Source of the DNA: Selaginella tamariscina
Lineage: Eukaryota > Streptophyta > Lycopodiopsida > Selaginellales > Selaginellaceae
Assembly (NCBI GenBank): GCA_003024785.1
Contig: PUQB01000437.1
Span: 1 to 64,000, forward strand
Length of the DNA stretch: 64,000 bases
Reading direction: 5' to 3'
Shown here in pieces: positions 1 through 40,612 of the stretch; the stretch's first letter is position 1, and each line of letters begins with the position of its first letter. A program made the position numbers and the translations under genes. The notes beneath the pieces were generated by a model. The model was not told where the DNA came from. It did no database searches and saw only the letters and a list, made by a program, of their open reading frames with translations.

Positions 1-575
1 GTGGGATTAATCGGCCATTTTTTTTCGCCTTTTAGAAGAGGTGGCGGGATTAATCCCGCACCATCTTTCTTATAGCTATGACAGAATTAGTCCAGGCAAT
101 GCTTCTGTTCAAAAAAGAGTGGCGGGATTAATCCGCCGATAACTCTCTCAATAATAAAAGAGTTTAAAAGAGTTGTCGGGATTAATCGCCAACCATTTTA
201 GGAGGCAGAGAAAGGGGTGGCGGGATTAATCTCGCCACCACTTCCCTGTTTTAAATATTTGGGGCAGGATTATCCCGAGATCTCTTTGAAATCATAGTTT
301 CGAGAGAGAGTTGTGGGCAGGATTAATCCCGCCACCCATTCCCCGTCGTAAGAAGTTGTGGGCGGGATTAATCCTCTTCCTCGTTGGAGGGAGCGGGATT
401 AATCCCGCCCTCTTCCTCGTCGAGGGAGGCGGCGGGATTAATCCCGCCGACTTCCTTCCGGAGGGAGTCAAGGCGGGATTAATCCCGCCGACTCTCTCCG
501 AAGGGGTAGAGTCGGGGGCCACCGTTCCTCGTCGGAGGGAGTCGTGGGCGGGATTAATCCCGCCCATCAGTTGTA
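1..575. repeat. Palindrome array in gene A 5' intron (copy 1)
   Basis: About 12 copies of the 18-bp palindrome GGCGGGATTAATCCCGCC and 1-3 base variants, about 40-70 bp apart. Spacers in the half nearest gene A are themselves partly self-complementary (CTCCGACGAGGA-type). The array lies in the intron that splices at 710/711. Short ORFs across it, with GGINPA or AGLIPP repeats, are by-products. Confidence 0.9.
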
Positions 576-710
576 TTAATAAAGCATGAGATATTATCTT
601 ATACATAATTATGTATTATTGCACATGCATATTATTAAGCAACCGCATTCAGATTTCTTAGAAATATTGCATAAACAGATATCATAAATAACACAATTAT
701 TTATGTGCAG

Positions 711-3700
711 GACAATATTTAATACTGGAGATAAAGTATGTCTTCTTCGGAACAACGAGATAGTTGGCACTGGAACTGTGGAAGTTCGAGATGATAATGC
801 ATCATGTCACAATATTGCCCAAGGATCTTGTGTGTACGTATGGGTGAACACCATTTCAAGCATGTTGAGGTTCGGGAATGGAATTTGAGGAGGGTTCTCC
901 TGTATTGTGGAATTTGGATGAAGTCAAGGCTGACACAGAATATGCAGAGTCACAAACAAATAGTAGCACGAGTTTACCAGATGATGGCTTGCCTGCTGTG
1001 ATGGATGAGGTGATTCTCTTTCTTCATGAGATTGAGGTTGGGAGAGGCATCATCACAGCTATAAATCCAATGGAAGCAGTGTCAGAAGAGAAACTAGGGT
1101 CCGACTTCGTGGGTGTAGTTGTGACAGAGGTTTCACCTAATGGCACATTGCATCCTGGATCCCTCGTGAGGTGGCGAACATCTGAATTAAGACGGCAAGA
1201 TGGTTCAACATATTCTGGGTTGGATTTCAATAATAACAACCCGGAAGAACAACTCATATTTGAAGAGGTTCCTTGCATTGGTCCTATTGTAAGAAAAAGG
1301 CGATTCATGGGTTGCAGATCTTCCCCTGCAAGTTTCAGCAAGAGGGTAAAGATGGATCCTACATCTTCCGAAAGTGTTACGAGCATTTCCACGATTGACT
1401 GCTGCAAGAAGAAGTGTTGTCAGATGGCAGACCGGAATGAAATTACCCAATGTAGACATGTCTTTCGTACGCTCACCCAAAAGCAAAGGCATGAGTTTGT
1501 ATATGCTGCACTAACTGGGTGTATTGATGGAATGGCCTCGGACACAGGTTATCAGAGTACATCCATGGTATTTAATAAGGTGGCCATCTGCTTCAAAGCT
1601 TGGTACAGTATATACGGGATCCCAAAGACCACGTTCTACCGTCGGAGGGATGAGTGGCTAGATGGAGCGCGAACCTCAGTACATGGGAACACTCGCTTGG
1701 TCAAAACCCGCTCTCACATTATGGCAGCCATAGAGATACTCAAGGCTTTTGTGGAAGCAAATGCAGACAGGATGCCTCACAAATGCCGAACCACAAATGC
1801 AGGGGTCAGGGAAAATCTCAAGGTTTTGCCTTCAATCTACACTCAATTGAAGCTGTGTGAACATGTGAACAAGTGCCTCAGTTTGATGGGGCTCCAAGCA
1901 ATCTGCACTGGTACCTTCAACAACATATGGAATACTCATTTTAAGGATGTGGAGATTGCAAAACACTCTAGCTTTTCCAAGTGTGACACTTGTACATCAT
2001 TGAAGGCTGCAGAGGCTTGTGCAAAAACCTTGGTGGAGATCACTGCCATTCAAAAGAAGATGGAGGCCCACATGATTGCACAACAAACTTGCCGGTCTCA
2101 GTACTATGCACACCGCATGCTTTCTGTGTCACGCCCATCAGAGTACCTGTGCTTGATCCATGACAAGATGGATCATTCAAAGACCAGCATTCCAAAGCTC
2201 TTTGCAACACCAAAGTGCCTTGGAAATGTCATGAAACTTCCGATTTCATTGACAGGTGTGCTAACACATGGACACGGTTGTGAGTCATATGGACACTTTT
2301 CACTTCCACATTGGTCTAGCGACTCCAATTTCACTATTGGGTCGTTGGCCATGTGTTTCAGAAACCTTGAAGCCCACTCACAGACAAGTCCTATCAGTGA
2401 TCTCAAAGTGAAGAAACAACACCTTCAACCTTTACATAATGCTCTCATGAACACGTCTGCACTTGAGGCTACTTGGGAATATGAGAGGCATTGTCAGCAC
2501 CTGCAAAAAACAGATGGCCCTGTTGAGAGTTCAGGTTCAGTGGAGGGATCTAGCTCAAATAGTGTACATGTGTCCTCAACATCAAATAAGCTTCCTCGTC
2601 ATTTGCTTTTACAGATGGATAATTGTGCAGGCGAGAACAAAAATAGGTAAATCATTTTACTTAAGGGTTTCTCAAGCTCATACTTACTTTTATTTTCTAG
2701 ATATGTGCTAGCATACTTGTCAATGCTTGTTGCCAAAGGTGTGTTTGAAACAATCACGCTCAGTTTCCTTATGGTTGGTCACACTCATGAAGATATTGAT
2801 GCGTTCTTCAGCAAGGTCTCCAACTCTACAAAAAGGACAAGTGCACTTACCTTACCGCATATGATGAATCTTTTTGAAAATTGCATCTCCAAAAAAAGTT
2901 GTGCTTTGCTTGTGACTGAGGTGCCAGACTTCAAAAAATTTCTCAAGGAGTATATAAAAGAGGGAGTGATTCTTTAGTTGGTCACCTTGTGCCGCTACAA
3001 TTCTTTTTCTCCATACGAGATGGTATACCTATTATGCAGTACAAGTTACGGCCATCAGAGCAGGAGTGGTTACCGAAAGAGGGTTAATGCTCTTCAAAAG
3101 TGGAGAGGATGGAAAGCCACTTCTCCCAGAAGGACAACCAGACCCTATTCCATTGAGTGCCCAGCTCAAGGAACAAGAGGTTATTATTGATGGCATCAAA
3201 AAATATGTGGCATGGGTTCAAAAATCGATGCCAAAGAATTCTGATAAGGCAACTGGTTACTCAGAACTATATAAGCATGTGGTCGACTATTGGGAGACTG
3301 TTGTTCGAGAGTTGGAAGGGCCTACTGTCACAAGTACAGAATTGCAACACCCTTTTTGGCCTAAAACAAGGTGGCGAGAGGAGATTGAAATGACATCACT
3401 GAGCACAGACGACATAGAAGCCAGTAGTGATGTGGAAGTGCAAACCCCACACTTTGTTGGACAAAGGAACCAAAAACCTAAAGCATACTTTGATTGCTGC
3501 AGGATCTTCAAAAACTAATGATGGTTCTCATTACTCCAGATGCGTCATATAATCAGCCTATTTGGATGGGTCAAATTATCGACACACCTGAAGTAATCAC
3601 AAAAAATAGTATTGTTAAGGTTGCATGGTTCAAACCAAAAAAAGGCGACACGAGAAGGAGAGCGAAAGATATAATGGATGCCTAGAGAAAACATGGTCTC

Positions 3701-3825
3701 CCAATCAAAAAGACCCAGCATGTTTTATAAATGTTAAATCCATTCGATATGGGTGGATGTCAAGAAGCGTTGATAAAGTCACGATTAACAAAACTGCAAG
3801 GGAATGTATGTTTTCTGAAGCTTAA
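711..3825 (+). CDS. Gene A, DDE/RNase H-type transposase-like protein, copy 1, frameshifted
   Basis: Probable transposase of the element. An acceptor at 710 opens the coding exon. The main frame runs 878-2646, a 54-bp GT-AG intron spans 2647-2700, and coding resumes at 2701. N-terminal half: two similar segments of about 50 residues (around 730-860 and 1000-1150) with a shared [L/F]-x-EI-x-VG-x-G pattern, resembling the plant-transposon DUF8039 type. Middle: basic RKRR, a Cys cluster CCKKKCC and a helix-turn-helix-like stretch ending FYRRRDEWL. Catalytic region, DUF7869-like: LIHDKMD (about 2154), LLQMDNCAGENKN (about 2610, next to the intron) and VGHTHEDID (about 2775), as expected for three acidic residues of an RNase H fold. 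C-terminus: IWMGQII...VKVAWFKP, a small Tudor-like segment. Odd: the ATG seen in copies 2 and 3 is lost by a 2-base deletion near 716; frameshifts lie near 850-875, 2965, 3515 and 3645. The family-level assignment is from motif memory. Confidence 0.75.
2647..2700 (+). other. 54-bp intron in gene A
   Basis: The reading frame before the site ends in ENKNR and the frame after it begins YVLAYL. Joining AG/GTAAAT to TTTTCTAG/A restores one frame. The same intron recurs in copy 2 (minus strand, about 10016-10069) and copy 3 (about 43941-43993). It sits between the second and third catalytic motifs. Confidence 0.85.
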
Positions 3826-4304
3826 AGCAATTACAAAATTATAAAATATCATATATTTAATATTCATAATTATTATAAACTCTTTAATAATAGTACCAAA
3901 TTTTTACTTAACTATATAAATTTAAAAAATGATATGGAAGATTGACTATATTATTATAGGATTTATATATATATATATTATTACTACTACAAATTTTTAA
4001 TTAATAATGTTATATTTAAATATTAATATTTTAATAACAACATCAATATTTATATAATGTACCTCTTATGCTCTTCCTTAATTGTTATATTAGGCAATAT
4101 ATTATATAATTTAATACCTTCTACTTTTATAATGTTATTAATTTTTGTTCAATGAATGCTATAATTTATTAAAGGGGAATACAAAATAGAATATTCTAAA
4201 GAATATTCTTTTTCAAACATATATTCTAAAGAATATTCCTTTAATATTAGAAAATGCTAATTAAATAGCTAAAATTGCTAATTATTAGGAAATGGGACTA
4301 TAGC
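3826..4304 (+). repeat. AT-rich subterminal region with GAATATTC palindromes
   Basis: Very AT-rich non-coding sequence after the gene A stop. At 4186-4243 it holds several AAGAATATTCTTT-type palindromes, repeated in copy 2 (8471-8530) and copy 3 (45488-45545). The same GAATATTC core occurs near the opposite end (22525-22575), so it may be a subterminal transposase-binding site. Confidence 0.55.
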
Positions 4305-4331
4305 CATGCCCATTTTAGTTACAACTTGCAT
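4305..4331 (-). repeat. Terminal inverted repeat, gene A end (copy 1)
   Basis: 27 bp. Read inward, the outer part is ATGCAAGTTGTAACTAAA followed by ATGGGCATG. It is identical to the left end of copy 2 and differs at 2 positions from the gene B end. Flanking host sequence begins ATATAT. Confidence 0.85.
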
Positions 4332-6085: not shown

Positions 6086-8382
6086 TTCTTTCTATCTTGA
6101 ATATAATATGAGTAAATTTCAAATCTTATTCTAGGTATAGTTATTTCTTTATTGTGTAATACTTTATATTTAATGTTTATATTAACTAGTTATTAAAACT
6201 ATCCAGAACATAAGCTCTAGTGTTTAGTGATTAGGCAAGTGACAATGAAAAGCATAGTACAAATTCAGATGTTTGTGCAATTGGAGTAGCAATATCCAAC
6301 ACACATTCTTTTTTTATGTAGGAAGCAAGCCCATGTGATGAACTTTTACTAGTCTGCCTATGCGACAAAGATGAGTTAGATGCTATAATTGTTAATTATA
6401 CAACACTCACAATTGTGTTAAGTTTCAATATAAGGTAATATATGAGGAGATGGTTATATGTGTATAGTTATGATACATACATTCAATCTTTACTAAGTTT
6501 CTACACGATGTCTAATGTGTGTGTGTGTATAAATATATATATGCCATGAATTTGTTATATACACAAGATATACATGTATCACAATTACTAAACTCATGTA
6601 CGTATGCCATGAATTTGTTATATATCATATGTCACAACTTGTACATGTATTATGGTTACTAATTACATTGACAATTTGTGTGTGCCCTCATGTTTGTCAA
6701 TGCAAGGTGAAAGTGTGTGTGAACATGTACTAACTAAGTGAGTGTTCATGTAAGAATGAGAGACTATATTTTATGTCATAGCTATATCACACAACATGCA
6801 TGTGTGGCACAATTGCTTCTATGTGTGTGTGTCTTTGAGAAATTTTATTACTCTTTATTCTCAATATTCATAAGTTGGACATAATCTTTAGCTAATTGAT
6901 CAAGTGTTTGGCGTAGCCACTTGTGATGTGATCCTCTCTATCTTGAGTGATTCTTTGTCTACCAACAACACCGCCTCCTCTGTGTGCATCCAAAGACACT
7001 TTATTGCTTTGTTGTTTTGTCTTCCTTTCACTCCAATAACATTGGTAGCTTCCTTGCATGCATTCCTAATATCCATTGTATTTCCTTAAATAATCTAATC
7101 CTAGCTTATATATTAAGTCCCAACAAACCTTTGCCATTTAATCACTCTGATATTGAAAAAGAAAAATGACAAAAGAAACCTTGATTGTCGAATCTGCAAC
7201 ACAAATTAAATATGTCAAGTCAAAGAGAACCTACACACCTTATCCTCTACAAGAATTTCTTGAGCCATTTTATGTGCAATTTGAGCTGGATAACATCTTC
7301 ATCCTCATCTTATAGATCATTCTCTTCCTTATTAATCATGGCTAACCCTTCTTCTTCATTAAGTTCTAAATCTAAGCTTTCCTCCTCATTCTAGACTCCT
7401 GTTAACACAGCTCCTCCAACAAAGATTGAAAGTTTTGCTACTATTCATCTACTTGCACAACCCCTTCAATCGCTCCTCTTCATTGTACTCCTCAAAAACT
7501 ATATTTTACATGGTCTTCAAGTGATAGTAAAAGCTACTCTTGCTATAATATTTACCCTCATATCCTCTCCCTCAAACAATTACTACAACGACATTGGAAA
7601 CTACCTTGATGCTTTGATCCGGCCATCTAGTCGATTTCTTGAAATCCTGTGATACTTGTACACACATTTAGTAACAACAACTCTAAGATAAGAAGAATCA
7701 ACATCTAAGAAAAAATTATATATATGTCATTTTTACTTTGTGAAATTTGTGAAATATAGCATTAGAAGCCTTAGATTCAATATGGGTCATCCATAAACAA
7801 TGGTTTTCTTACATAGTTTTAATAAACCATATATATAATTTTTTGGGACTTTGACAAAATTTGTGGAAATATAACATTACAAGCCCTACATTCAATTTGG
7901 GCCATCCATAATAAATGATTTTCTTAACTCTGTTAAATTAAAAGCCCTATATTCAACATCACTAACAAGACCTAAACCTAGATTCAGTATAGGTCATTCT
8001 TCTCTCTGTCGTTGCCTTTCACAACTTCTTCTCTCTTGCCACCATTTAAACTTTGTCTCGCCACCTTTCACATCCTCCATCTCTGATCGAGTAACTAAAA
8101 TGGACATCACAAGATTGAACCTAAAGAGCTAAGGTAGTATATTTTAGATAGGCATCAAGTAACTTAGAAGTGTGCTCAATTGCTTTGAGAAGGAAAGCCT
8201 TTGATGGCTATATAACTTCTACTCTCAAGTTGAAGGATTATGAACTCTTAGTTGTAATGTGGGTGAGACAAGGCATCTGAGGACTTGCTTCAAAAGCAAA
8301 CACAAGACAACTTTCTACTCTTGAGGAATGGGATCCATAGCACCGTCTAAGGTAACTCCCTAACATCACAAAGCAAACCTAG
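4332..8382. other. Flanking AT-rich DNA with a diverged direct repeat
   Basis: No supportable gene. A segment of about 650 bp at 4332-5000 recurs diverged at about 6530-7200. Both carry TGCCA-x-GAATTTGTTATAT, a TGCAAGGTGAAAGTGTGTGTGAA stretch and the AACTTGTGGTGTGAATCC-like region. A pure (AT)n tract lies at about 6026-6083. Several runs of CA/TG repeats. Short ORFs (for example 7185-7394) are not conserved or recognisable. Confidence 0.6.
6026..6083. repeat. (AT)n microsatellite
   Basis: Uninterrupted TA dinucleotide run of about 58 bp in AT-rich non-coding DNA. Confidence 0.95.
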
Positions 8383-8409
8383 ATGCAAGTTGTAACTAAA
8401 ATGGGCATG
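8383..8409 (+). repeat. Left terminal inverted repeat (gene A end)
   Basis: Begins ATGCAAGTTGTAACTAAA and continues ATGGGCATG. The complement of 22706-22732 matches it at 25 of 27 positions. Confidence 0.9.
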
Positions 8410-8470
8410 GCTATAGTCCCATTTCCTAATAATTAGCAATTTTAGCTATTTAATTAGCATTTTCTAATAT

Positions 8471-8530
8471 TAAAGGAATATTCTTTAGAATATATGTTTG
8501 AAAAAGAATATTCTTTAGAATATTCTATTT
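8471..8530. repeat. Subterminal GAATATTC palindromes (copy 2, gene A end)
   Basis: Several GAATATTC/AGAATATTCT palindromes within 60 bp, the mirror of 4186-4243. Confidence 0.6.
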
Positions 8531-8885
8531 TGTATTCGACCCTTTAATAAATTATAGCATTCATTGAACAAAAATTAATAACATTATAAAAGTAGAAGTA
8601 TTAAATTATATAATATATTGCCTAATATAACAATTAAGGAAGAGCATAAGAGGTACATTATATAAATATTGATGTTGTTATTAAAATATTAATATTTAAA
8701 TATAACATTATTAATTAAAAATTTGTAGTAGTAATAATATATATATAAAATCCTATAATAATATAGTCAATCTTCCATATTTTTTTAAATTTATATAGTT
8801 AAGTAAACAATTTGGTACTATTATTAAAGAGTTTATAATAATTATGAATATTAAATATATGATATTTTATAATTTTGTAATTGCT

Positions 8886-11800
8886 TTAAGCTTCAGAAAA
8901 CATACATTCCCTTGCAGTTTTGTTAATCGTGACTTTATCAACGCTTCTTGACATCCACCCATATCGAATGGATTTAACATTTATAAAACATGCTGGGTCT
9001 TTTTGATTGGGAGACCATGTTTTCTCTAGGCATCCATTATATCTTTCGCTCTCCTTCTCGTGTCGCCTTTTTTGTGGTTTGAACCATGCAACCTTAACAA
9101 TACTATTTTTTGTGATTACTTCAGGTGTGTCGATAATTTGACCCATCCAAATAGGCTGATTATATGACGCATCTGGAGTAATGAGAACCATCATTAGTTT
9201 TTGAAGATCCTGCAGCAATCAAAGTATGCTTTAGGTTTTTGGTTCCTTTGTCCAACAAAGTGTGGGGTTTGCACTTCCACATCACTACTGGCTTCTATGT
9301 CGTCTGTGCTCAGTGATGTCATTTCAATCTCCTCTCGCCACCTTGTTTTAGGCCAAAAAGGGTGTTGCAATTCTGTACTTGTGACAGTAGGCCCTTCCAA
9401 CTCTCGAACAACAGTCTCCCAATAGTCGACCACATGCTTATATAGTTCTGAGTAACCAGTTGCCTTATCAGAATTCTTTGGCATCGATTTTTGAACCCAT
9501 GCCACATATTTTTTGATGCCATCAATAATAACCTCTTGTTCCTTGAGCTGGGCACTCAATGGAATAGGGTCTGGTTGTCCTTCTGGGAGAAGTGGCTTTC
9601 CATTCTCTCCACTTTTGAAGAGCATTAACCCCTCTTTCGGTAACCACTCCTGCTCTGATGGCCGTAACTTGTACTGCATAATAGGTATACCATCTCGTAT
9701 GGAGAAAAAGAATTGTAGCGGCACAAGGTGACCAACTAAAGAATCACTCCCCTCTTTTATATACTCCTTGAGAAATTTTTTGAAGTCTGGCACCTCAGTC
9801 ACAAGCAAAGCACAACTTTTTTTGGAGATGCAATTTTCAAAAAGATTCATCATATGCGGTAAGGTAAGTGCACTTGTCCTTTTTGTAGAGTTGGAGACCT
9901 TGCTGAAGAACGCATCAATATCTTCATGAGTGTGACCAACCATAAGAAAACTGAGCGTGATTGTTTCAAACACACCTTTGGCAACAAGCATTGACAAGTA
10001 TGCTAGCACATATCTAGAAAATAAAAGTAAGTATGAGCTTGAGAAACCCTTAAGTAAAATGATTTACCTATTTTTGTTCTCGCCTGCACAATTATCCATC
10101 TGTAAAAGCAAATGACGAGGAAGCTTATTTGATGTTGAGGACACATGTACACTATTTGAGCTAGATCCCTCCACTGAACCTGAACTCTCAACAGGGCCAT
10201 CTTTTTTTGTGCTGCTGACAATGCCTCTCATATTCCCAAGTAGCCTCAAGTGCAGACGTGTTCATGAGAGCATTATGTAAAGGTTGAAGGTGTTGTTTCT
10301 TCACTTTGAGATCACTGATAGGACTTGTCTGTGAGTGGGCTTCAAGGTTTCTGAAACACATGGCCAACGACCCAATAGTGAAATTGGAGTCGCTAGACCA
10401 ATGTGGAAGTGAAAAGTGTCCATATGACTCACAACCGTGTCCATGTGTTAGCACACCTGTCAATGAAAAAGTTTCATGACATTTCCAAGGCACTTTGGTG
10501 TTGCAAGAGCTTTGGAATGCTGGTCTTTGAATGATCCATCTTGTCATGGATCAAGCACAGGTACTCTGATGGGCGTGACACAGAAAGCATGCGGTGTGCA
10601 TAGTACTGAGACCGGCAAGTTTGTTGTGCAATCATGTGGGCCTCCATCTTCTTTTGAATGGCAGTGATCTCCACCAAGGTTTTTGCACAAGCCTCTGCAG
10701 CCTTCAATGATGTACAAGTGTCACACTTGGAAAAGCTAGAGTGTTTTGCAATCTCCACATCCTTAAAATGAGTATTCCATATGTTGTTGAAGGTACCAGT
10801 GCAGATTGCTTGCAGCCCCATCAAGCTGAGGGTTCACATGTTCACACAGCTTCAATTGAGTGTAGATGAAGGCAAAACCTTGAGATTTTCCCTGACCCCT
10901 GCATTTGTGGTTCGGCATTTGTGAGGCATCCTGTCTGCATTTGCTTCCACAAAAGCCTTGAGTATCTCTATGGCTGCCATAATGTGAGAGCGGGTTTTGA
11001 CCAAGCGAGTGTTCCCATGTACTGAGGTTCGCGCTCCATCTAGCCACTCATCCCTCCGACGGTAGAACGTGGTCTTTGGGATCCCGTATATACTGTACCA
11101 AGCTTTGAAGCAGATGGCCACCTTATTAAATACCATGGATGTACTCTGATAACCTGTGTCCGAGGCCATTCCATCAATACACCCAGTTAGTGCAGCATAT
11201 ACAAACTCATGCCTTTGCTTTTGGGTGAGCGTACGAAAGACATGTCTACATTGGGTAATTTCATTCCGGTCTGCCATCTGACAACACTTCTTCTTGCAGC
11301 AGTCAATCGTGGAAATGCTCGTAACACTTTCGGAAGATGTAGGATCCATCTTCACCCTCTTGCTGAAACTTGCAGGGGAAGATCTGCAACCCATGAATCG
11401 CCTTTTTCTTACAATAGGACCAATGCAAGGAACCTCTTCAAATATGAGTTGTTCTTCCGGGTTGTTATTATTGAAATCCAACCCAGAATATGTTGAACCA
11501 TCTTGCCGTCTTAATTCAGATGTTCGCCACCTCACGAGGGATCCAGGATGCAAAGTGCCATTAGGTGAAACCTCTGTCACAACTACACCCACGAAGTCGG
11601 ACCCTAGTTTCTCTTCTGACACTGCTTCCATTGGATTTATAGCTGTGATGATGCCTCTCCCAACCTCAATCTCATGAAGAAAGAGAATCACCTCATCCAT
11701 CACAGCAGGCAAGCCATCATCTGGAAAACTCGTGCTACTGTTTGTTTGTGACTCTATATTCTGTGTCAGCCTTGACTTCATCCAAATTCCACAATACAGG

Positions 11801-11992
11801 AGAACCCTCCTCAAATTCCATTCCCGGAACCTCAACATGCTTGAAAATGGTGTTCACCCATACGTACACACAAGATCCTTGGGCAATATTGTGACATGAT
11901 GCATTATCATCTCGAACTTCCACAGTTCCAGTGCCAACTATCTCGTTGTTCCGAAGAAGACATACTTTATCTCCAGTATTATACATATTGTC
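8886..11992 (-). CDS. Gene A, DDE/RNase H-type transposase-like protein, copy 2, frameshifted
   Basis: Minus-strand copy of gene A. The acceptor (GTGCAG) leaves the exon starting at 11992 with the first ATG at 11986, giving an N-terminus MYNTGDKVCLL. This copy keeps the start codon lost in copy 1. N-terminal domains and the DNA-binding-like middle are open down to about 10852. The post-intron exon (10015-9194, 271 codons) is fully open and carries VGHTHEDID and the region after it, broken in copy 1. The last segment (9218-8886) is in another frame, with IWMGQII and a terminal SEA. Copy-specific indels break the frame near 11840, 10830-10850, 10490 and 10200. Transcription would start in the GC-rich segment near 13500 and cross the palindrome intron. 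Combining open parts of copies 1 and 2 indicates a protein of roughly 1,000 residues. Confidence 0.75.
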
Positions 11993-13143
11993 CTGCACAT
12001 AAATAATTGTGTTATTTATGATATCTGTTTATGCAATATTTCTAAGAAATCATAACTGCGGTTGCTTAATAATATGCATGTGCAATAATACATAATTTAT
12101 TATAAAGATAATATCTCATGCTTTATTAATACAACTGATGGGCGGGATTAATCCCGCCCACGACTCCTCCGACGAGGAACGATGGGCGGGATTAATCCCG
12201 CCGCGACTCTACCCCTTCGGAGTGAGTCGGCGGGATTAATCCCGCGACTCCCTCATCGAGAGGTCGGCGGGATTAATCCCGCCGCGACTCTACCCCTGGA
12301 GAGAGTCGGCGGGATTAATCCCGCCGACTCTACCCCTCGGAGAGAGTGCGGATTAATCGCCGCCGATTCCTCCCGAAGGAAGAATCGGCGGGATTAATCC
12401 CCCGCGACTTCCTCGTCGGAGAGGGCGCGGATTAATCCCGCCGCGACTCCCTCCGACGAGGAAGTACCGGCGGGATTAATCCCGCCGATCTTCCTCGTCA
12501 GGAGAGTCGGCGGGATTAATCCCCGCAAATCCCTCCGACGAGGAAGGGGGCGGGATTAATCCCCCACAACACTGACGAGGAGAATAGGCGGCGGGATTAA
12601 TCCGCCCACAACTCTGACGACGGGGAATAAGCGGCGGATTAATCCCGCCACAACTCTCTCCGAAACTATGATTTCAAAGAGATTCGGGATGAATCCTGCC
12701 CACAAATATTTAAAACAGGAAAGTGGTGGCGAGATTAATCCCGCCACCCCTTCTTGCCTCCTAAAATGGTTGGCGAGATTAATCCCGTAGGTAACTCTTT
12801 CTAATAAATTCAAGTAACTTTTATCAGTTGAGAATTATCGCGGGATTAATCCGCCGCTTTTTTAAAGGCAGAAGCATTGCCCGAACTAATTCTGCCATAG
12901 CTATCAAAGAATGGTGGCGGGATTAATCCCGCCACCTCTTGAAGAGGCAAAAAAAATGGCCGGATTAATCCCGCCGCCCGGCTAACTGAGAATATTAAGT
13001 TAGAAGTATATTTAAACGGGATAAATCCCTAACATATATATTGTAATCCTAATGCATTCCTAAATCCCTAAATTCTAAAATTTAAGAGAGAATGTAAGAG
13101 AGTGAATCTTTATAAATATATCTAAATTTGTTTATATACTTAC
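11993..13143 (-). other. Predicted 1.15-kb 5' intron of gene A
   Basis: On the minus strand, donor CAA/GTAAGTAT at 13143 and acceptor TTATTTATGTGCAG at 11993, placed immediately before the gene A ATG. The donor is also kept in copy 3 (about 41053). It contains the palindrome array. Inferred from splice signals and conservation, with no transcript evidence. Confidence 0.55.
12139..12978. repeat. Palindrome array in gene A 5' intron (copy 2)
   Basis: About 19 units of GGCGGGATTAATCCCGCC or close variants, spaced at about 40 bp near the gene and wider further away. Spacers contain imperfect palindromes of CTCCGACGAGGAAG type. The GC-rich arms contrast with the AT-rich surroundings. Confidence 0.9.
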
Positions 13144-13535
13144 TTGTAAAACTGGTCGTCAGGGACTCCGCAGGCCAGATGTGTAGTTGCTCAGGAAGCT
13201 GCAGTGGTCACTAGACGCTGTTGAGGGCATCCAACCCCGGGGTTCTGCCGGTCGTCGGAGTAATGGGAAGTATTGGGATGGCCTCTACCCGGACGCCGCG
13301 AGGGTCCGTGTACAGGTGAGAGGAGAGTTCTACTGAGATGACTGGGCAGAGAGGATTGGGACCCAGGAGTCGGCAAGCGGGAAACGGCCGCTGGTGGAGA
13401 ATAGAAGGAAATGGACATATATATATTGCCTGCCTGAGTACAACTATCTCCGACAATGGAGTAATCTATAAGACGCAGACTTGACTCCAAAAGACCCCGA
13501 CCCACTACCAGCCTTTCGGCTTATATAATGGGTAC
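13144..13535 (-). promoter_or_regulatory. Predicted gene A promoter and non-coding first exon
   Basis: Part of a GC-rich block (about 13147-13815) in an otherwise AT-rich centre. On the minus strand a TATA-like TTATATAAGCC lies at about 13520-13530, so transcription may begin near 13495. The exon would end at 13144 at a strong GTAAGTAT donor. Copy 3 lacks the whole block: there GCTGTTTATAA is followed directly by GTAAGTATT. The block could alternatively be a later insertion into copy 2; no target duplication was found. Confidence 0.45.
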
Positions 13536-13859
13536 CTACCACTAGTCCCTAGCTACAGGTGGCGCTCTCTCACTGGTCCGCCGCCTGGTGACAGAGTTCT
13601 GCCTATCACATTTATGCGCCTCCCCACGCGTGTTGTCCTATGTACCCTGGGTAGTTGGTCTGACGATCGATCTTCGCCCGCTTACGCCGCTGCCTGACAT
13701 CGGTCGCATCAGTCTGTACCTGAAGTACCTCTGTTATCCGGTGTTCGTCCAACCGCTCGTCTGCACCGTGGCGATCTGCGGATGGCGCGATGACGGGCCA
13801 CCATCAACCATAAACAGCACTGAAGGCGTCGTGCTTTCCTATAAACAATAGCGCACCCA

Positions 13860-14270
13860 ATTTAATGTCGCTCTAAGTTGATCACTAAGAAGAAAAAGAA
13901 AATTTGAAGAGTGAAAAAAATAAAGAATTGCCGGAGAAAGAACCAGATCTGAATTTGAGTAGGAAATTAAATGCATTTTCAAATTTACATGTCAGACTGA
14001 ATACTTATATCAGAAATTTGAAATTTTTGAAATAACAGAAAAGAAAATTTAAGATGAGTTGAAATAAATAACCGACAGTCTGACATATATACTCTCCAAT
14101 TCTAATAAGTGTTTTAAATTGCATTTAATGTCATTCAAGTGCTTTCAAGCTGTTTAATATTACGAAATTTTTGTAATTATTCTACATTCTTAAATTTAAT
14201 ATTATATAATATATATATACACTAATACATAAATAATTGATATATTATTATGTATCATTTTAAAATATAT
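13860..14270. other. AT-rich central spacer
   Basis: No gene or clear motif. The reverse complement is conserved in copy 3 at about 40615-41030, so it belongs to the transposon. Confidence 0.6.
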
Positions 14271-14274
14271 TCAT

Positions 14275-14935
14275 AGTTTATTTATTATTATTATTTTCTT
14301 AATTACTCGAGAATTAATTTACATTTCCTACTATTAATGGGATATTCTTTATTATTTCTTAATATTCAAAGAATATTCCATATTAAACCTGATTATCAAA
14401 TATTAAATTAGTCTTATTTAATTATCTCAGTAATTATTTACATTTGTATATATAATGGGATTTTCTCAATTAATATTTGTTATTATTTCAAGAATATTTC
14501 CTATGTAAACCTTATTATCAATATTAAATTAATATATATTATTAAAACTATATATGACTATATATTAAATAAAATTTTGTATTATTATGTATAATTTAAA
14601 ATATGTTCATAGTGTGTATATTAATATCATTTTCTTAATTACTTGAGTAATTAATCTTCTTTATATTAATGCGATATTCTTTATTATTTTCTTATTATTC
14701 CAGAATATTCCAATATTAAACATGATTATCATAATTATTTAGTTAATTATTTCAGTCCTTGATCTACATTTGTATATATTAATAGGATTTTCTCAATTAA
14801 TTTCTTATTATTTCAAGAATATTCTAATGTTAAACCTTATTATCAATATTAAATTAATATATATTATTAAAACTATATATGGCTATATATTAGATAAAAT
14901 CATATATTATTATGTATAATTTAAAATATGTTCAT
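14275..14935. repeat. About 320-bp tandem duplication in the AT-rich centre
   Basis: Two tandem units (about 14275-14590 and 14600-14930) share GATATTCTTTATTATT, GAATATTCC and ACTATATATG blocks. The mirrored region in copy 3 lies at about 39880-40520. It contains the same GAATATTC palindrome as the subterminal regions. Confidence 0.65.
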
Positions 14936-15289
14936 AGTGTGTTATTAATATTATTTCTTAATTATTTTATGTTTGTTTTGCACACATATATAAACACAAT
15001 CATAAATTTATATATACACGTGTCCACACATTAGAAGCACTTACAAGACACATATGCACACACATGCACTTGCCCTAAACCAAACTTGAGAATTATAATG
15101 TTGCTTCTTTATTGAAAAACATCATGTTCAAGCATGTATGATCTATATGTACTCAGTCTGTGTGTATGTAACACATTGAATTTACACATGTAATATATAT
15201 GTATGTCTGTGTGTATACATGTGTGTATGTATATATGTGTATTAATATATGCAATGTGTACGATTTTTATTTGTTAACACTCTATCTCT

Positions 15290-15740
15290 TCTCTCATACA
15301 TACACAGTGTCACCATGCATAATCCCTTCTCTCATACATACACACCATGCATGATCATGATCCATAATATGTAGCCTGTCTCCTCTTCTCTCATGCATAC
15401 ACACCATGCATGATCCATAATATGTACTGATGTTACAATATTATGTAATATGTATAATGTATATCTATGTATAACACTCACTCCTCTCATACATAAACAC
15501 CATGTATGATCCATCCTAACCCTAAACCCTAAACCCTATGTAATACATTGAATTTACACATCTAATATGTATGTATGTCTGTGTGTATACACGTGATGTA
15601 TATGTGTGTACTAATATATGCAATGTGTATGAATTTAATTTGTTAACACTCACTCTCTTTTCTTAAACATACACACCATGCATGATCCATATATGTATTG
15701 TCTCTCTTCTCTCATACATACACACCATGCATGATTCATA
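15290..15740. repeat. Repeats with RY elements (ACCATGCATGATCCAT)
   Basis: Five or more copies of CTCATACATACACACCATGC followed by ATGATCCATAATATG. Each contains CATGCATG, the plant RY element recognised by B3-domain factors of the ABI3/FUS3/LEC2 type. They lie upstream of the inferred gene B promoter. Mirrored in copy 3 at about 38800-39270. Confidence 0.65.
15513..15538. repeat. Short plant telomere-like repeat
   Basis: CCCTAAACCCTAAACCCTA-type run, with further telo-box AGGGTTT motifs at 15980-16075. The inverted counterpart in copy 3 is at 39053-39087. Too short and too internal for a telomere; telo-boxes are known in plant promoters. Confidence 0.75.
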
Positions 15741-15899
15741 ATATATACTTCTGTCTCTCTAATATTAATATGTATTAATATGTATATATGTTTATGTGTA
15801 TAATACTATGTGTGTATATATGTATTGCTACACGTAAAAAATTTAAACACTCTCATGGACACACACATGTTAAACCCTGCATGATTTTTATTCTTGGGG

Positions 15900-16129
15900 T
15901 GTATGTGATACACCCACGCACACGTACACGCTGATAATATAATGAAAGAATATTCGTTTAGGACGAATCTATAATTTATTCTTTTTAGGGTTTAAGTATA
16001 TTCTTAGAACGAACGAATATTCAATTAGGGTTAATATATATCTATTCCTTTTAGGGTTTTGATATATTCCTAGGGTTTCAAGAAGTAAGAAGGCGGTGGC
16101 TGTGAAATCTCTTTCTCTCTCACACACAG
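15900..16129 (+). promoter_or_regulatory. Predicted gene B promoter and non-coding first exon
   Basis: Three TTTTAGGGTTT-type telo-box motifs and GAATATTC elements precede a pyrimidine-rich leader. CACACACAG/GTGAGATC provides a donor at 16130. The matching acceptor TTTTGCAG at 17893 lies 39 bases before the gene B ATG. The copy 3 equivalent is at about 38420-38660. The exact transcription start is not visible. Confidence 0.45.
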
Positions 16130-16257
16130 GTGAGATCTCTCTCTCTCACACGCACACTCCTGAGTTTATTTATTTATTTTTATTCACATATATATTTATA
16201 TGTGTGTGTATCTTAATAATATAATTTAGATCTCTATCTCTCGCACACACACGCACA

Positions 16258-16304
<47 letters not shown>

Positions 16305-16628
16305 CTGTGTGTGTTTGTGTTTGTGTATTTGTAAATTATATTAATTTATTAATTATCTCTTGCACACGCACGCACACTCCTGTATAATTCTATTTATTTA
16401 TCTATTTCTCGCACACACACGCACACCCCTATACATACATACACATATATATATATATACACACACACACACATATATATATGTGTGTGTGTGTATCTGT
16501 ATATTTTATTGATTTGTTAATTGTGTCTCTCACACACACACGCACACTCCTATATATATATGTGTGTGTGTGTGTGTTTGTTTATCTGTATGATTTATTT
16601 GTTTCACACACACGCATACACACGATAT

Positions 16629-16659
<31 letters not shown>

Positions 16660-16982
16660 TATTATAATTATATATATATATACCTATGTACATATATACA
16701 TACATATATTATGTGTACCAGTATCTGTATAATTTTATTTATTTATCTATCTCTCGCACACACCCGCACACTCCTGTATATACATATATACAATATACAT
16801 AAATATATACATATACATATGTGTGTGTGTGTGTATCTGTATAATTTAATTTTATTTAGCACACACATACGATATACATACATATACATATGTGTGTGTG
16901 TATCAGTATAATTTTTATCTGATTTGTTTATCTCTGGTACACACACGCACTCTCCTACACACACATATACATACATATATAT

Positions 16983-17019
<37 letters not shown>

Positions 17020-17020
17020 A
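16130..17020. repeat. CA/TG/TA microsatellite block
   Basis: Compound dinucleotide repeats with recurring CTCGCACACACACGCACAC and TCTGTATAATTTTATTTATT blocks, giving a loose higher-order repeat of about 100-140 bp. Counterparts lie at 38045-38420 and 45632-46195. ORFs rich in HTHTH or CVCVC are by-products. Confidence 0.85.
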
Positions 17021-17600
17021 GCGGCGGGATTAATCCCGCCGCTATATGGTTAGACCTCAGCAGCGGGATTAATCCCGCCGCCATTTCAGGCAGGTTATTC
17101 GGTTAGCCTCATGAGCGGCGGGATTAATCCCGCCGCCCATAAGGCTAACCAAAGAGCAACGGGATAATCCCATCGCCTACACATGCCTTGCGCAGAATCC
17201 GGCGGGATTATCCCACCGCCATTGGCCTATCTGAAGGGCCTAGGCGGCGGGATTAATCCCGCCGGATTCTGCACAGGGCATTGGCGTCCGGCGGGATTAA
17301 TCCTGCCGCTAGGGCTCAAGTGAAGGGCCTGGGCGGTGGGATTAATTCGCGTACTAAGAAGGGTGCGAGATTCATTTCACCATCCCTTACATGGTGGGCG
17401 AGATTAATCCCGCCTTTCCTGGAGTCACTGAAGGGGTGTGCCAAATAAATCCTGCCAAGTTCTCTCTGAGACCGAGAAGGGTGGCAAGATTAATTCCGCA
17501 CTCCCGTTCAAGGCCTCCAGAAAGGTGGCGAGATTAATCCCGCCCACTCTTTCAGGAGGCATTGAAGGGGTGGCGAGATTAATCCCGCCGCACCTTCCAT
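17021..17600. repeat. Palindrome array in gene B 5' intron (copy 2)
   Basis: About 14 units of GGCGGGATTAATCCCGCC and variants at about 40-48 bp spacing. The core is the same as in the gene A intron but the spacers differ (GCCTCATGAGCGG, GAAGGGCCTAGGC types). The side near the gene is more diverged, often GGCGAGATTAATCCCGCC. Confidence 0.9.
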
Positions 17601-17703
17601 GTGAATATATATGTGTATTAGTATATATAAGTTGCATATCTCATTTTATTTACTTTTATCATCTTATCATAATATTTCGAGTAAAAGCTAGGAATCTATG
17701 TAA

Positions 17704-17790
17704 AACTGTCCAGAGCTCACATTTGTGGTGGTTCTAAAACGAAATGTTATCTTTCTTTTGCACTAGCACAAATGTGAGCTTTGGACAGTT
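17704..17790 (+). ncRNA. MicroRNA-precursor-like hairpin in gene B intron
   Basis: The arms 17704-17727 and 17767-17790 can pair over all 24 positions with a single G-U wobble, closing a 39-base loop. The hairpin is kept in copy 3 (37240-37327, inverted) and copy 4 (47000-47086), on the gene B sense strand. Size and stem suit a plant miRNA or siRNA precursor, but no target or expression data are available. A small MITE-like insertion is an alternative. Confidence 0.5.
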
Positions 17791-17932
17791 AATTCCGTCT
17801 ACTTCTCTCTGTGTATTATTTTTGTATATTCGGGTTTATACAAGTGTGTGTGCGTTTTTATATGATTTGTATTCATAGTGTATTATTTTGCAGAAGGACG
17901 ATTTAATTAAACAAGGAGATCGAGTCATTAGT

Positions 17933-20900
17933 ATGGAGTCGTCGTCAAATTCTGGGTAAGAATTAAAATAAAATCTGTTATACTCGGATATGTGTTGAAC
18001 TAATCATTTTTGTATTCAGATGTGGAATTGAGGTGACATTAAAGACAGAGCAGGAGAAGAGATGGGCAGGGGGATTCTGGAATCAACTTGGCCATATTTC
18101 AAACTAAACGGGAAGCGCATTGGAACAACCATGGTTGCTGTCAAACTAACCTCTGTCACATCGCATGGACAAGCAAAACAATGGAAAGTGGGTGTGCTAG
18201 TCAAGCATCCGAAAGCATGCTGAACCCAGATTGAACGATGCTCGACACATATGCCTTGTTCCATCCAATGTCACGTTCTCGATCCAGAGTCAACATTAAG
18301 GGTGGTTTTGTCGACTTGTGGATAATGACGTTCACGTGTTCACTAATGATGTTTGACCGTGGAGTTCTTCTTCAACTCAACGAAAGCCCATCTATGGAGG
18401 GGATCCACTGGATGTCTACTTCGAAGATCTTCAGACTCATCGAGTAGGTGTATTTGTCAGGAGATATTGCTTCACAATACAGAAAATCCACAAGTGGAGC
18501 AATCGTCCCTCTTCACATTGAAGAAGAACACAGCGACATCATAAGGAGATTGAGAGGGTGGCTTGGTCTCAGGTTCTTTACAGATCACGTTCAATTTGCT
18601 TAGAAATTTGGGAGCTGGAAGAGTGTGCCGAGAACATTAGAACAGCATCAATCGGGGATCACACATGTTGATTCGGATCGTAAAGAAAATCATTATCGTT
18701 TTGTCAGCTGCACCTGTGGCATCCCATGCTGCAATAAGCCACAAGGAAATGATGTTGGATGATAGGATTTACAGTGTAGGGTTAAGTATTGCAGCGTCAA
18801 CCCAAACTTCAATTACAGGCCACTCAACCAGGAACGTGTAGCTGAGCTCATGGAGAAGATGAAGGACGACAATTCTTACACCGTTCCACATAATGCTGTT
18901 TTGTGCGCATACTACGAGAGAAACAAAGGCGCTGACAAAGTGTGGATCACAACACCGGAACAAATGAGGAAGGTTCAGACGGAGAATAGAAAATCATTAA
19001 GTACTACATCATTAGTGGCCAGCACACAATAACGGCAGCCCAACGACTTCTCGACGAACACAACAAAGGAACGATGGCAACAAAACTTTCCGAGCATACC
19101 CGTGAGAAGCTGACGAAAAGATCGGCGTTTTTAGCGAAGCCGAATCTCACAATCGAGCAGTACCATAAGTTATCGGCGGAATGGGACGCTGCAGACACCA
19201 ACCACTACAACAGCAAAATATGGGAGAAGTTCAAACACACGCGAGCCGTGTGGGAATCTCTTCAGCGACCACAAAGAGCTACCGCAGGGAATACACAATC
19301 TGCGGACTACCGGGTAAGCAAATTGTTTGGGCGGGATTTATCTCGCCGGTATATTAATCTGTCTTTTTTCTCAGAGAGTTGAAGAAATTGTAGCAGTTGA
19401 TTTTGCCCAGGTGGGCGGGAAGGAAACATCCTTTTTGATGATGTTGATTTCTTGTCCCGAGGATAGGATCTTTGCAAATGGTTGGGGATTATGGAATCCT
19501 TTGCAAAAGGAACACTGAAGAAGAAGCAGACAAGTGAAGGGAGCCCTCAGAGAAGTCTGCAAAGAAACCCAGTAAGACGCCGAAGGCTAAGTCTGTTCAA
19601 TCTATAAAGGATGTAGACAACGATTTCAAGCTCACATGGTTGAAGCCTTTAAATGGAACAACGATGGAGGAGATGGAAGTCTTGGCTGATTTGGTGATTG
19701 ATGGCAAATTACAGATTAACAACAGCAGCCCCACCTCTCCTTTTCATCTCAAGGCAATGGAGTTGAAGACGGTCAGGCACTTCAAGGAGTGGTTGGGAAT
19801 ACACTGCCACAAACTGGGTTGGACCTCGGCTTCAACATACGAAGAGGTCAGCAAATATTTGCATGTGACAAACGATGATATGCTTGTCGAATGGGTGAAT
19901 CAATCGGAAGATCTGGGCAAGAATCTATTGCACGCCAACGCCAAAAGGAGAACATTGGATGACGCCTTCTCTTATGGCAGTCCTTCAGCAGCGGAGAACC
20001 GAGTTGAACCTTATAAAGGAGGATGCTACGAATCACGACAAGCCCTACAGATGTTTGTTGTTGGATTCGGAGACTTTATGGGGTACCATCACTGCTTGTA
20101 GGAAACCGTTTCAATTGTTCGTGATGGATCGGCGGGTGTCAAAAAATCCTTCGACAGACAGGACACTAGAGGATTTGGTGGAGAAACTTAGCCGTGCAAG
20201 CATGTACAAAGAAGGTATTTATTATTGAATTCATACTTGCACTCTTGACTGATATCTACGTTTTCAGGTATTTATTTCTTGATTCTTGCTCATGTCACCG
20301 ATACCTTTGCCTTCGCCTTTGCCAAGAGGAATAAACATCGTTGGACAGGATTTTATATGAATGATGCTGATCCGAAGTGCATTGATTCGGTTGTTCACTT
20401 GGTTGTTAGGAATGCGCCAAACATTTCAAACTTCCAAATGACTGGCCAGGCATCTGTTTGCACTCCAACGGCCCTGAACCTCCATCCGATACACCGATAG
20501 TGAGAGTGACGTATTCGGCAATGTACGTTATCCAAACATTACAAGTCAAGCGGCACGGAGCATCGTCAACTTGATCAGGGGTCCTCACAGTGATGCGTGG
20601 GTTTTTGACTACTGCACTAGGGGGTCCGTCTTGAAGGAGTGTTACCTTCGGATACATGTGTTTGCCGTTGAAAAGGATAAGACCATGGTTGAGGACCTGA
20701 ACAAGTGGATAGATAGGTTCTCAACTGACTACCCCAACGAATCCATAAAGGAGTATTTGAGAAAGTTCCCTCCAGATAAGTGCGATAGCTCTGAAGACGA
20801 ATCTGGTTCAATGTCGGAGTCTGAGGACGAACTTCAATCAGATATTAGACCGGAAGTTATCTCGAGGAGTACAGAACATTCACACACTCCATTACCCATG

Positions 20901-21009
20901 GAAACATCAATAGAAGATGGAAGATCTTGAACCATCTCACAAGCGGCTTAGACCTTCTTCGCCTCACTCAGAAGGTAATAGCGAAGAAGAATTGTTAATG
21001 AGTTCTTAG
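17933..21009 (+). CDS. Gene B, ParB-like plus DNA-methyltransferase-like protein, copy 2, frameshifted
   Basis: Multi-exon gene. ATG at 17933, introns at 17956-18019, 19314-19374 and 20215-20267 (all GT-AG), stop at 21007. The N-terminal third (18020-18700) has no recognised domain. A ParB/sulfiredoxin-fold segment follows (about 18790-19060): RPLNQERVAELMEKM and, after a gap, YYIISGQHTITAAQRLL. A Lys/Pro/Ser-rich linker (about 19540-19600) looks like a nuclear localisation region. The C-terminal part resembles a permuted N6/N4-type DNA methyltransferase: a motif IV-like position QLFVMDRRV (about 20112-20140), then a motif I-like WVFDYCTRGSVLKEC followed by HVFAVEKD (about 20597-20670). The tail is acidic. 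Motif IV reads DRRV instead of the catalytic [D/N/S]PP[Y/W], and motif I lacks one Gly, so catalysis is doubtful. An in-frame TGA at 19535 is shared with copy 4. Several copy-specific indels break the frame. Prokaryotic ParB-methyltransferase fusions are known; this pairing in a plant transposon is my inference. Confidence 0.6.
19314..19374 (+). other. 61-bp gene B intron carrying a diverged palindrome
   Basis: Donor CCGG/GTAAGC, acceptor TTTTTTCTCAG/AGAG. It contains GGCGGGATTTATCTCGCC (about 19331-19348), a two-mismatch relative of the array palindrome. The copy 4 equivalent is at about 48616-48675. Confidence 0.7.
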
Positions 21010-21117
21010 AGTGACGAATAGTTGTAAATGAGTGTAACATAAGGCATTTTTGTATATTTCGTTTATATTTGTACAGAAAATAAATTCTCAAGGATTAATG
21101 AAGCTTTTAGTTCAAAC

Positions 21118-22452
21118 ATGGGTCACACATTAACAAGGTAAATAATATACCTTGATAATTTTAAGGTCAGCTAATTATCATTTTGCAGATGTAATGAAAC
21201 ATTGAGAACATGGATTTTCAGCATTGCATGAGGTAAGAGAGGGGTTTGGCGACAATTTCTTGTGCCACATGTCAGAATGACAGAGTTCATGCAGGAAATG
21301 GATAATAATGCAGCTCAAAACATCGTTACCATGGGGGCCACTTCAGTTTTTTCATCATCATTTTATTGGCTTCAGTTCCGAAATCAATTTCTTCAGCGCA
21401 TGCAATATCTGAATCTTGTAAGGATGATGTACAATTAAATGATGAAGGGATAGGCAACGAGATAGTCAACGGATAAATGTGAAAGGGAGCAAACAAGTGA
21501 TTTGCAAAGTATTCAAGAGGCAACGCTATCCATGTTACTCATGGCCATATTGTGTTGTTGGATGTCAATGGTGTTCTGCTTCATCGACAAAGGCCCGAGG
21601 ATAGGAAAAAAGAAATCAAACAAGGAGATTTCATTCCTTGTCATGGTAAATTTCGATATGATATTATTTTTCGTCCAGGGTTGGATCGTCTCTTTCAAAA
21701 GCTTAAGGAGATGGGTGCGCTTGTGGGGATTTGGTCATGCATGCAGATTCATAACTTAACACCGCTGTTGAATTTGCTTAAGAAACATTGTAGTGTTGCA
21801 GAAGAGGTGATTCGTAAAGATTGGATTTTTGACCAGCGAATGTTATAAACCTCTCGAATTTCACAATATAAGAAAGGAAAGCAAGCCATACTTCTTCAAG
21901 AATGAAAGAATAATTGGGACTCATGGGGAGATCAGTCGCTTAAGGATAATGAAGAATGCAATATTCTTAGTGGTAGACGACTCTCCTCAGAAGGCTATGC
22001 TCAACCAAAACATTGCTTGTATTCATCCAATCACTTTCGATCCATATTCTGATACCGATATCATGGATGAGCTAGTGAACTACTTGGATACGTGCCTCAG
22101 AAAGAAGAATCTCGAAAATTTTTGTGAGCAGTATCCACCGTATCAACATTTCCTGAAGCTTTTCTTTCTCGTGATTTTGAATTTTATAAAATGAAGGATA
22201 GCAACCGGGCGCTTTATAATATTATTCTTAAGGAACGTCATTTTTAGATGAGCCTTTATGCAGACCTGGTCTTATTACATCTTATGTATTAACAAGGATG
22301 GCAACTCCCAATTGCATTCGTGAGAGTGTTAAGTGGTGGCAACAACATCAAGATATTGACCAAAATGATTTGATTAATCCGGAGAGTGATGATTTAGACA
22401 AAATGAGGAGATTTCTCTATATGGTTAGAAGAAAGTATTTATAAAAAATTAA
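21118..22452 (+). CDS. Gene C, HAD/FCP1 (NIF)-like phosphatase, copy 2, frameshifted
   Basis: Follows gene B on the same strand. The HAD core is clear at about 21540-22130. Motif I is LLDVNGVLLHR (about 21555), with Asn where classical FCP1 has the second Asp (a DxNG variant I associate with plant NIF-domain proteins). Then FRPGLDRLFQKLKEMG and VGIWSCM. Motif III is VVDDSPQKAMLN (about 21966). These fit the FCP1/SCP class that dephosphorylates phospho-Ser/Thr proteins. Upstream, two small introns (21138-21188, 21233-21275) may connect a short N-terminal part starting at 21118; this is tentative because a TGA at 21498 interrupts the frame before the core. The end of the gene (about 22250-22452, with a WWQQHQD stretch) may be a further exon after TTTTTAG. 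It could instead be a downstream part of gene B. Confidence 0.6.
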
Positions 22453-22524
22453 CATGTTGATAAGAAAATGATTTCATTTGTAATTATGTTTGATAGTATT
22501 TCTTCATTATTGTAAACTATTTTT

Positions 22525-22705
22525 AGAATAATATGAATATTCTAAGATATTTTAGGAATATTCCTTACTAAGTAAGGTTATTGAAGGATTAATTAATTAA
22601 TTAATTAATATTTAAGGCTTAATTACATATTAATTAAATGATTAATTAATAATTAAAACTTAAGTATTAATTAGTAATTTATTTTATATTCCCATTTTCA
22701 CGTAT
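22525..22705. repeat. Subterminal AT-rich region, gene B/C end
   Basis: Contains GAATATTC and GGAATATTCC palindromes (22540-22568) and TTAATTAATTAA repeats (22585-22660). It mirrors the palindromes near the gene A end. Confidence 0.55.
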
Positions 22706-22732
22706 CATGCCCACTTTAGTTACAACGTGCAT
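22706..22732 (-). repeat. Right terminal inverted repeat (gene B/C end)
   Basis: Read inward, the outer part is ATGCACGTTGTAACTAAA, then GTGGGCATG. It pairs with 8383-8409 and matches 51984-52010. Confidence 0.9.
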
Positions 22733-36217: not shown

Positions 36218-37066
36218 TAATCTTATCATCCAACATCATTTTCTTGTGGCTTATTGCAGCATAGGATGCCACATGTGTAGCTAACAAAACGACTGATGAT
36301 TTTTTTATAATTCGAATCAACATGTGTGATCCCGACTGCAGTTGTTCTAATGTTTTCGGCACACTCTTTCAATTTCCGAAGATTCCTAGGCAAATTAAAC
36401 GTGATCTGTAAAGAATCTGGGACCGAGCCACCTTCAATCTCCATAATGATGTCGCTGTGTTCTTGTTCAATGTGAAGAGGGATGATTGCTCCACTTGTGG
36501 ATGTTCTGTATTGTGAAGCAATCTCTATTGAGAATACACTTACTCGATGAGTCTGAAGATCTTCAAAGTAGATATCTAATTGGATCCCTCCATAGATGGG
36601 CTTTCGTTGAGTTGAAGAAAGAACTCCACGGTTAACATCATTAGTGAACACGTGAACATCATTATCCACAAGTCGACAAGACCACCCGAGATTAATGTTG
36701 TAACTAGTGACCTCTGGATCCAAGAACGTGACATTGGATGGAATAAGCTATGTGTCGAGCATCGTCCAATCTGGATTCGCAGACTACTTTCGGGTGTTTG
36801 ACTAGTAAATTTTTTCTATTATTTTGTTATCCATGCGATGTGATAAATGTTAGTTTGACAGCAACCATGGTTGTTCCAATGCGCTTCCCGTTTAGTTTGA
36901 AATATGGTCAAGTTGATTCTAGATCCCCTGCCCATCTCTTCTCATGCTCTCGTCTTCAATGTCATTCAATTCCACATCTGAATACCAAAAAAATTAGTTC
37001 TTCAAGTACATATCCAAGTATAACAAACTTTATTTTAATTCTTACCAGAATTTAACGACGATCCAT
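36218..37066 (-). pseudogene. Gene B 5' half, copy 3 (disrupted)
   Basis: ATG at 37064-37066, first intron about 36978-37043, then the N-terminal domain open over 36723-36226 (165 codons, including HRVSVFSIEIASQYR). This shows the N-terminal region in one frame, which copies 2 and 4 lack. It is interrupted by the retrotransposon at 36217. A G is lost just after the ATG, shifting the first exon. Any ORF reading on into the LTR is spurious. Confidence 0.75.
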
Positions 37067-37327: not shown

Positions 37328-37433
37328 CACATAGTTTACTGGCTTTTACTCAAAATATTATGATAAGATGATAAATTTAAATAAATGAGATATGTAACTT
37401 ATATATACTAATACATATATATTCACATGGAAG

Positions 37434-40610: not shown

Positions 40611-40612
<2 letters not shown>

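Follow-up and report, generated by a model that had tools for sequence, protein, structure and literature searches.

A probable 14-kb transposon of Selaginella tamariscina with a DUF7869 gene, opposite-strand cargo and two arrays of one palindrome

Do the matching ends that enclose 14 kb of DNA in Selaginella tamariscina bound a single transposon and, if so, what might the opposite-strand genes and repeated palindromes inside it be doing? The question concerns a stretch of 64,000 nucleotides (positions 1 to 64,000 of the forward strand of contig PUQB01000437.1, assembly GCA_003024785.1; hereafter the window), in which one complete copy of the element (E1) stands among three pieces of others (E0, E2 and E3; Table 1). 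Gene A, with a DUF7869 domain, lies on one side of an AT-rich centre, and genes B and C lie on the other side and the other strand. Our answer, to which we give a probability of roughly 0.6 taken as a whole, is that E1 is a large cut-and-paste (class II) transposon with terminal inverted repeats (TIRs), that gene A would encode its transposase and gene B an accessory protein, and that the palindrome arrays would be bound by a protein of the element.

A 29-bp end pattern, allowed up to three mismatches, occurs at three places in the window (the left and right ends of E1 and the end of E0), where 0.00 are expected by chance and none appeared in 100 shuffles; a 27-mer scan at up to eight mismatches added only the right end of E3. 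Measured against the 27 bases of the E1 left end, the right end of E1 matches at 25 positions, the E0 end at 27 and the E3 right end at 23, and the left end of E2 can be aligned once small indels are allowed; the five ends observed all start with ATGCA. A 17-bp inner end pattern is less telling, with five matches against 1.24 expected and 2 of 100 shuffles reaching five. The preliminary description had proposed a 14-kb TIR transposon with matching 27-bp ends, present as one complete and three partial copies, and on both counts we agree: self-alignment of the window, by which E0, E2 and E3 were located, places four copies or pieces at different positions within the 64 kb. The fixed gene order that it also proposed holds in part, since A-centre-B (the 5' part of B) recurs in E1 and E2, and B-C in E1 and E3, but the complete order A-B-C is present once only, in E1. 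E2 extends to the E1 equivalent of base 18769; because its left end, on the other side, adjoins the microsatellite centre of E3, the arrangement suggests a nested insertion with the other ends lost. Assembly quality is locally poor inside E2, with a run of 555 N at 44933-45487 and many single-base indels there.

Could the A half and the B/C half be two independent elements that were merged here by chance? Such a merger would accord with the unequal divergence of E2 from E1, which is 1.0-6.8% mismatches per 500 bp in the A part and rises to 7-16% across the beginning of B and most of the centre; it would also accord with E0 and E1 being nearly identical along the A part and dissimilar within the array, from which partly separate histories are possible. 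Over the microsatellite and the right array E2 aligns poorly to E1, with 22-50% mismatches. Against this, neither the 29-bp pattern nor the 27-mer scan (up to eight mismatches) finds an internal end pair in E1, where TIR pairs belonging to each half had been named beforehand as the observation that would speak for two elements; a single palindrome serves both arrays; and A-centre-B is common to E1 and E2 despite their divergence, so that the linkage predates the split between these copies. With no internal ends, and with the linkage kept in a diverged copy, we set the merger aside as very improbable. One element with two divergent units, as first described, is thus retained, the splice-like sites of both leaders also being kept between E1 and the diverged E2. 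The accompanying idea of co-evolved modules found no support here. One half of E2 has diverged further from E1 than the other, and the halves of the element may not have one common history in every copy.

Comparison of 8380-12980 with 1-4334 shows the A halves of E0 and E1 to be almost identical up to a sharp divergence within the palindrome array: mismatches per 500 bp stay at 0-1.0% across 8380-11879 but reach 15.6-20.0% in the far part of the array, a pattern that would be expected if the array set a limit to exchange or turnover. A three-way count of unique sites in the far left array did not clearly place any two of E0, E1 and E2 together; a clean module swap at the array was therefore not adopted, exchange and fast turnover being indistinguishable there.

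What would move such an element is, to judge by its sequence, likely gene A. Its pieces match the DUF7869 profile of Pfam with 94.9 bits (cut-off 26); its exon borders were read from the sequence, its second exon contains GHTHEDID, and a C-terminal extension down to 8886 is possible. The gene is frameshifted in E1 and has a longer open reading frame (ORF) in E0 (869-2650), where a 593-aa open frame reaches the GT-AG intron; frameshifts are found in the copies generally, at positions differing from copy to copy, and look like assembly indels. Relatives number 36 among 5.8 billion proteins; 7 carry the name of the liverwort Riccia sorocarpa, and metagenomes are also represented. When 23 of these relatives are aligned with two ORFs of the window, the conserved blocks HDKMD, LDN..NKN and GHTHEDID stand out; these could supply the acidic residues of a catalytic triad. 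PF26133, a precomputed label on some of these relatives, is absent from the Pfam scan of P0001, P0002, P0003 and P0006. For exon 1, comparison of E0 with E2 gives a ratio of nonsynonymous to synonymous substitution rates (Ka/Ks) of 0.34 when read in the gene's own frame and of 1.80 and 0.46 when the frame is shifted; for exon 2, E1 and E2 give 0.44, a figure without a shifted-frame control. Together these values support constraint on the protein to a modest degree. No relative with genomic context was found among 201 pattern stretches in IMG/VR, and a name search of the literature returned nothing on DUF7869. In the prokaryote genome collection, 1 relative was found among 75 stretches, on the 4.3-kb contig L002: it is an intact, intronless 963-aa DUF7869 ORF (547-3438), filed under a cyanobacterial metagenome bin, and the contig is possibly eukaryotic contamination. 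L002 carries no relative of B or C (best E 0.43), though a contig of this length could miss one close by.

The second part of the question concerns the palindrome GGCGGGATTAATCCCGCC, which is found in the window at 60 sites with up to three mismatches, where 0.01 are expected. At up to five mismatches there are 77 sites, 77 of 77 inside copies of the element (E0 10, E1 29, E2 23, E3 15), and they lie mainly in the putative leader introns of the two divergent genes. The arms of the palindrome vary independently of one another, with changes in one arm uncoupled from the other, which fits two half-sites for a dimeric protein better than a hairpin; a hairpin function is not favoured, since complementary double changes, of which there are 6 across 68 sites at 6 position pairs, are not visibly in excess. 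The arrays look like docking sites, and are candidate binding sites for the product of gene B or of gene A. A factor of the host, rather than a protein of the element, might instead bind the palindromes and make the arrays host-dependent enhancers: the half-sites are GC-rich, the arrays lie near both leaders, and we take the half-site GGCGGGAT to resemble E2F/DP sites. The full palindrome with its ATTAAT core, present in 68 of the 77 sites (which were picked by similarity), nevertheless exceeds isolated half-sites, and we regard a host factor as unlikely. The palindrome is present in 1 stretch of IMG/VR, and the literature searched contains no record of it, its 12-bp core appearing in one unrelated paper.

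The product of gene B is most likely an accessory protein that binds DNA and belongs to the ParB-methyltransferase type described in giant transposons of algae. In the hand-stitched version, we take one stretch (SGQHTITAAQRL; IISGQHTITAAQRL), by eye, to be ParB-like, and the motifs after it presumably stand in the order of a beta-class DNA methyltransferase, two labels to which no search lent support. In the same version DRRV is seen where DPPY is expected and the glycine motif is poor; the catalytic-like motifs look degenerate, and the protein is probably without catalytic activity. The frameshifts that interrupt the gene differ between E1 and E3 and resemble assembly indels. Ka/Ks at the start of B is 0.67 between E2 and E1 and 0.55 between E2 and E3.

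The phosphatase-like label proposed for gene C is supported by the NIF domain of Pfam, which matches the hand-stitched sequence with 47.1 bits (cut-off 21.8) and the unstitched ORF with 31.5 bits. The usual catalytic motif of such phosphatases is DxDxT/V; both E1 and E3 have LLDVNGVLL, in which the second aspartate is replaced by N, and neither has the motif intact. At an E threshold of 0.001 none of 386 candidates proved to be a homologue of C, and the matches in PDB were weak and unrelated. Weak matches elsewhere in the searches were put down to chance, namely IBN_N (E 0.2), a PHROG of unknown function (E 0.27), a PH domain (E 0.018), DUF658 (E 0.06), GABA receptors (E 1.5-1.8) and two phage places (E 9-10).

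Several results count against the transposon as we read it, or against parts of that reading. The CTAG/CTAA pair, imperfect at three of four bases and present in one copy only, is the sole trace of a target duplication, and no solved structure matches gene A by profile. The ParB/methyltransferase identity first given to gene B found no support by profile in any search made: Pfam, NCBIfam, PHROGs and PDB sequences contain no such match, residues 250-900 have no supporting match among the 5.8 billion proteins, and the ParB-like piece, searched by itself, has none in phage genomes. At the start of B the shifted frames give Ka/Ks of 0.62 and 0.75 (E2 against E3), values that leave selection on B without support, and in B and C the copies E1 and E3 differ by too few changes for Ka/Ks. 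The identity of the palindromes within arrays, 76-86% against 30-40% for the 10 bases on either side, otherwise favours our reading but is inflated by the choice of sites by similarity. When copies are compared with one another, divergence is lower in the palindromes than in the spacers at p < 0.05 in four of six comparisons, and because the other two are not significant, selection on the palindromes is suggested only.

Some of these results would suit an explanation in which the transposon is real, genes B and C are captured passengers that do nothing for the element (Pack-type capture), and the arrays are minisatellites of an ordinary kind: no profile recognises B, the phosphatase family of gene C is widespread in eukaryotes, and palindromes and spacers do not differ in divergence in two of the six comparisons. 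Passengers of this kind sit less well with the retention of B and C in both E1 and E3 (0.2-4.0% mismatches per 500 bp), with the start of B being retained in the diverged E2 as well, and with the use of one palindrome in two separate arrays whose spacers are unrelated (between the left and right arrays of E1 the palindrome is 85% identical, its flanks 30%). We consider this explanation somewhat unlikely.

Under our preferred reading, the DUF7869 transposase would act on the ATGCA...TGCAT ends, and genes B and C would be cargo on the opposite strand, driven, like gene A, from the AT-rich centre, a presumed divergent promoter region. The product of gene B, or the transposase, would then bind the two GGCGGGATTAATCCCGCC arrays, one in each putative leader intron, and through this binding the element would control the expression or chromatin state of its own copy. 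A bolder version, which we offer tentatively and think unlikely in its full form, is a parS-like system on a land-plant-type transposon: a catalytically dead protein derived from a ParB/methyltransferase would bind the iterated palindromes in both leader introns and set the chromatin state or resist host silencing, with the arrays doubling as borders for module exchange.

Other features of the window are included in Table 1. The GC-rich insert in the leader exon of gene A has no counterpart in E2 and is single-copy in the window; it is possibly a solo insertion of another element. A further repeated family, separate from the transposon, lies at 28238-30638, 34555-36069, 52984-54611 and 57975-58788, three of these four places having a 68-bp tandem unit (ACCCTAAGTCAACTAGGG...).

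Table 1. Positions of the element copies and their features in the 64,000-nt window (features belong to E1 unless otherwise stated).
Feature	Position	Strand	Remarks
Copy E1, complete	8383-22732		14,350 bp
Copy E0, inverted, left (A) part	1..4331	-	Left end at 4331; runs off window start
Copy E2, inverted, truncated	36219..45631	-	From left end (45631) to 5' part of gene B
Copy E3, direct, genes B and C	45726..52010	+	Right end 52010; starts in central microsatellite region
Left terminal inverted repeat, ATGCAAGTTGTAACTAAAATGGGCATG	8383..8409	+	
Right terminal inverted repeat	22706..22732	-	25/27 identical to left
Possible imperfect 4-bp target duplication (3/4)	8379..8382 and 22733-22736		CTAG beside left end; CTAA
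Gene A, DUF7869 protein	9194..11986	-	Exons ~11986-10068 and 10013-9194, GT-AG intron between
Putative leader intron of gene A	11993..13143	-	Donor GTAAGT, acceptor GCAG; sites conserved in E2
Left array of GGCGGGATTAATCCCGCC	12141..12975		18 sites (≤5 mismatches); 14/17 steps 37-51 bp
GC-rich (56%) insert, leader exon of A	13150..13812		663 bp
AT-rich centre between both leaders	13850..16000		325-bp tandem repeat at 14240-14964
Putative leader intron of gene B	16130..17893	+	Donor GTGAG, acceptor GCAG; sites conserved in E2
Right array of GGCGGGATTAATCCCGCC	17023..17589		10 sites (≤5 mismatches); 5/9 steps 39-45 bp, rest 55-107
Gene B	17933..20930	+	~940 aa, stitched by hand
Single palindrome-like site (2 mismatches)	19330..19347		In putative 61-nt intron of B (19314-19374); also in E3 at 48632
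Gene C, NIF/HAD phosphatase domain	21501..22194	+	

How does the element compare with transposons already described? CACTA/EnSpm elements have termini that start with CACTA or CACTG, and none of the five ends observed here does so, all of them starting with ATGCA. Maize En/Spm has a GC-rich repeated control region near its first exon, on which a protein of the element acts; E1 is similar in having a repeated GC-rich block near the first exon and differs in its unrelated termini and in carrying two arrays of one palindrome in the putative introns of two divergent genes. Sola1 elements make a 4-bp target duplication, a length that in the Sola1 of Physcomitrella would fit the CTAG/CTAA of E1, the two being compared by description only. 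That Sola1 appears, in the accessible part of PMC9033089, as a table entry for a DNA transposon class in a non-seed plant. According to the available text of PMC12477816, giant EnSpm elements of red algae (cited there) contain several accessory genes, and red algal transposons are said to include genes for proteins of the ParB-methyltransferase type. E1 is likewise large and has several accessory genes; unlike the red algal elements, it has ATGCA termini in place of the CACTA type and a DUF7869 gene A.

A close description is that of Sola1-1_Ec32, a 21.5-kb Sola-1 transposon of Ectocarpus, in which the gene opposite the transposase encodes a ParB-like and N4/N6 DNA methyltransferase protein of 1104 aa; the same text, as far as it is accessible, cites green and red algal cases of such genes (PMC12477816). 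Because a gene of this type opposite a transposase is thus already in print, the cargo idea is not new and the cargo type is a known kind; the earlier suggestion of an undescribed lineage gives way on this point and holds in part. The word ParB was not found in the accessible text of a review of giant transposons (PMC6431247), and the literature matches listed, from a search that left most subscription journals outside, include neither a land-plant element of the same kind nor arrays like those of E1. The part for which this search found no record is the palindrome arrays, the cargo layout being in print for algae.

Like Sola1-1_Ec32, E1 is a large DNA transposon in which a gene is encoded on the other strand from the probable transposase; the sizes of the two proteins (1104 aa against ~940 aa for gene B) are compared by description only, and gene B, unlike its Ectocarpus counterpart, is recognised by no profile. 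We found no mention, in the accessible text of PMC12477816, of a phosphatase gene or palindrome arrays like those of E1 in Sola1-1_Ec32. Should a protein of the ParB/methyltransferase type, encoded by the element, bind the arrays, the two would form a concrete site-and-protein pair on which to test the published proposal that proteins of this kind attach to and mark the transposon encoding them; such binding would also point to the presence in a land plant of a cargo type reported from algae.

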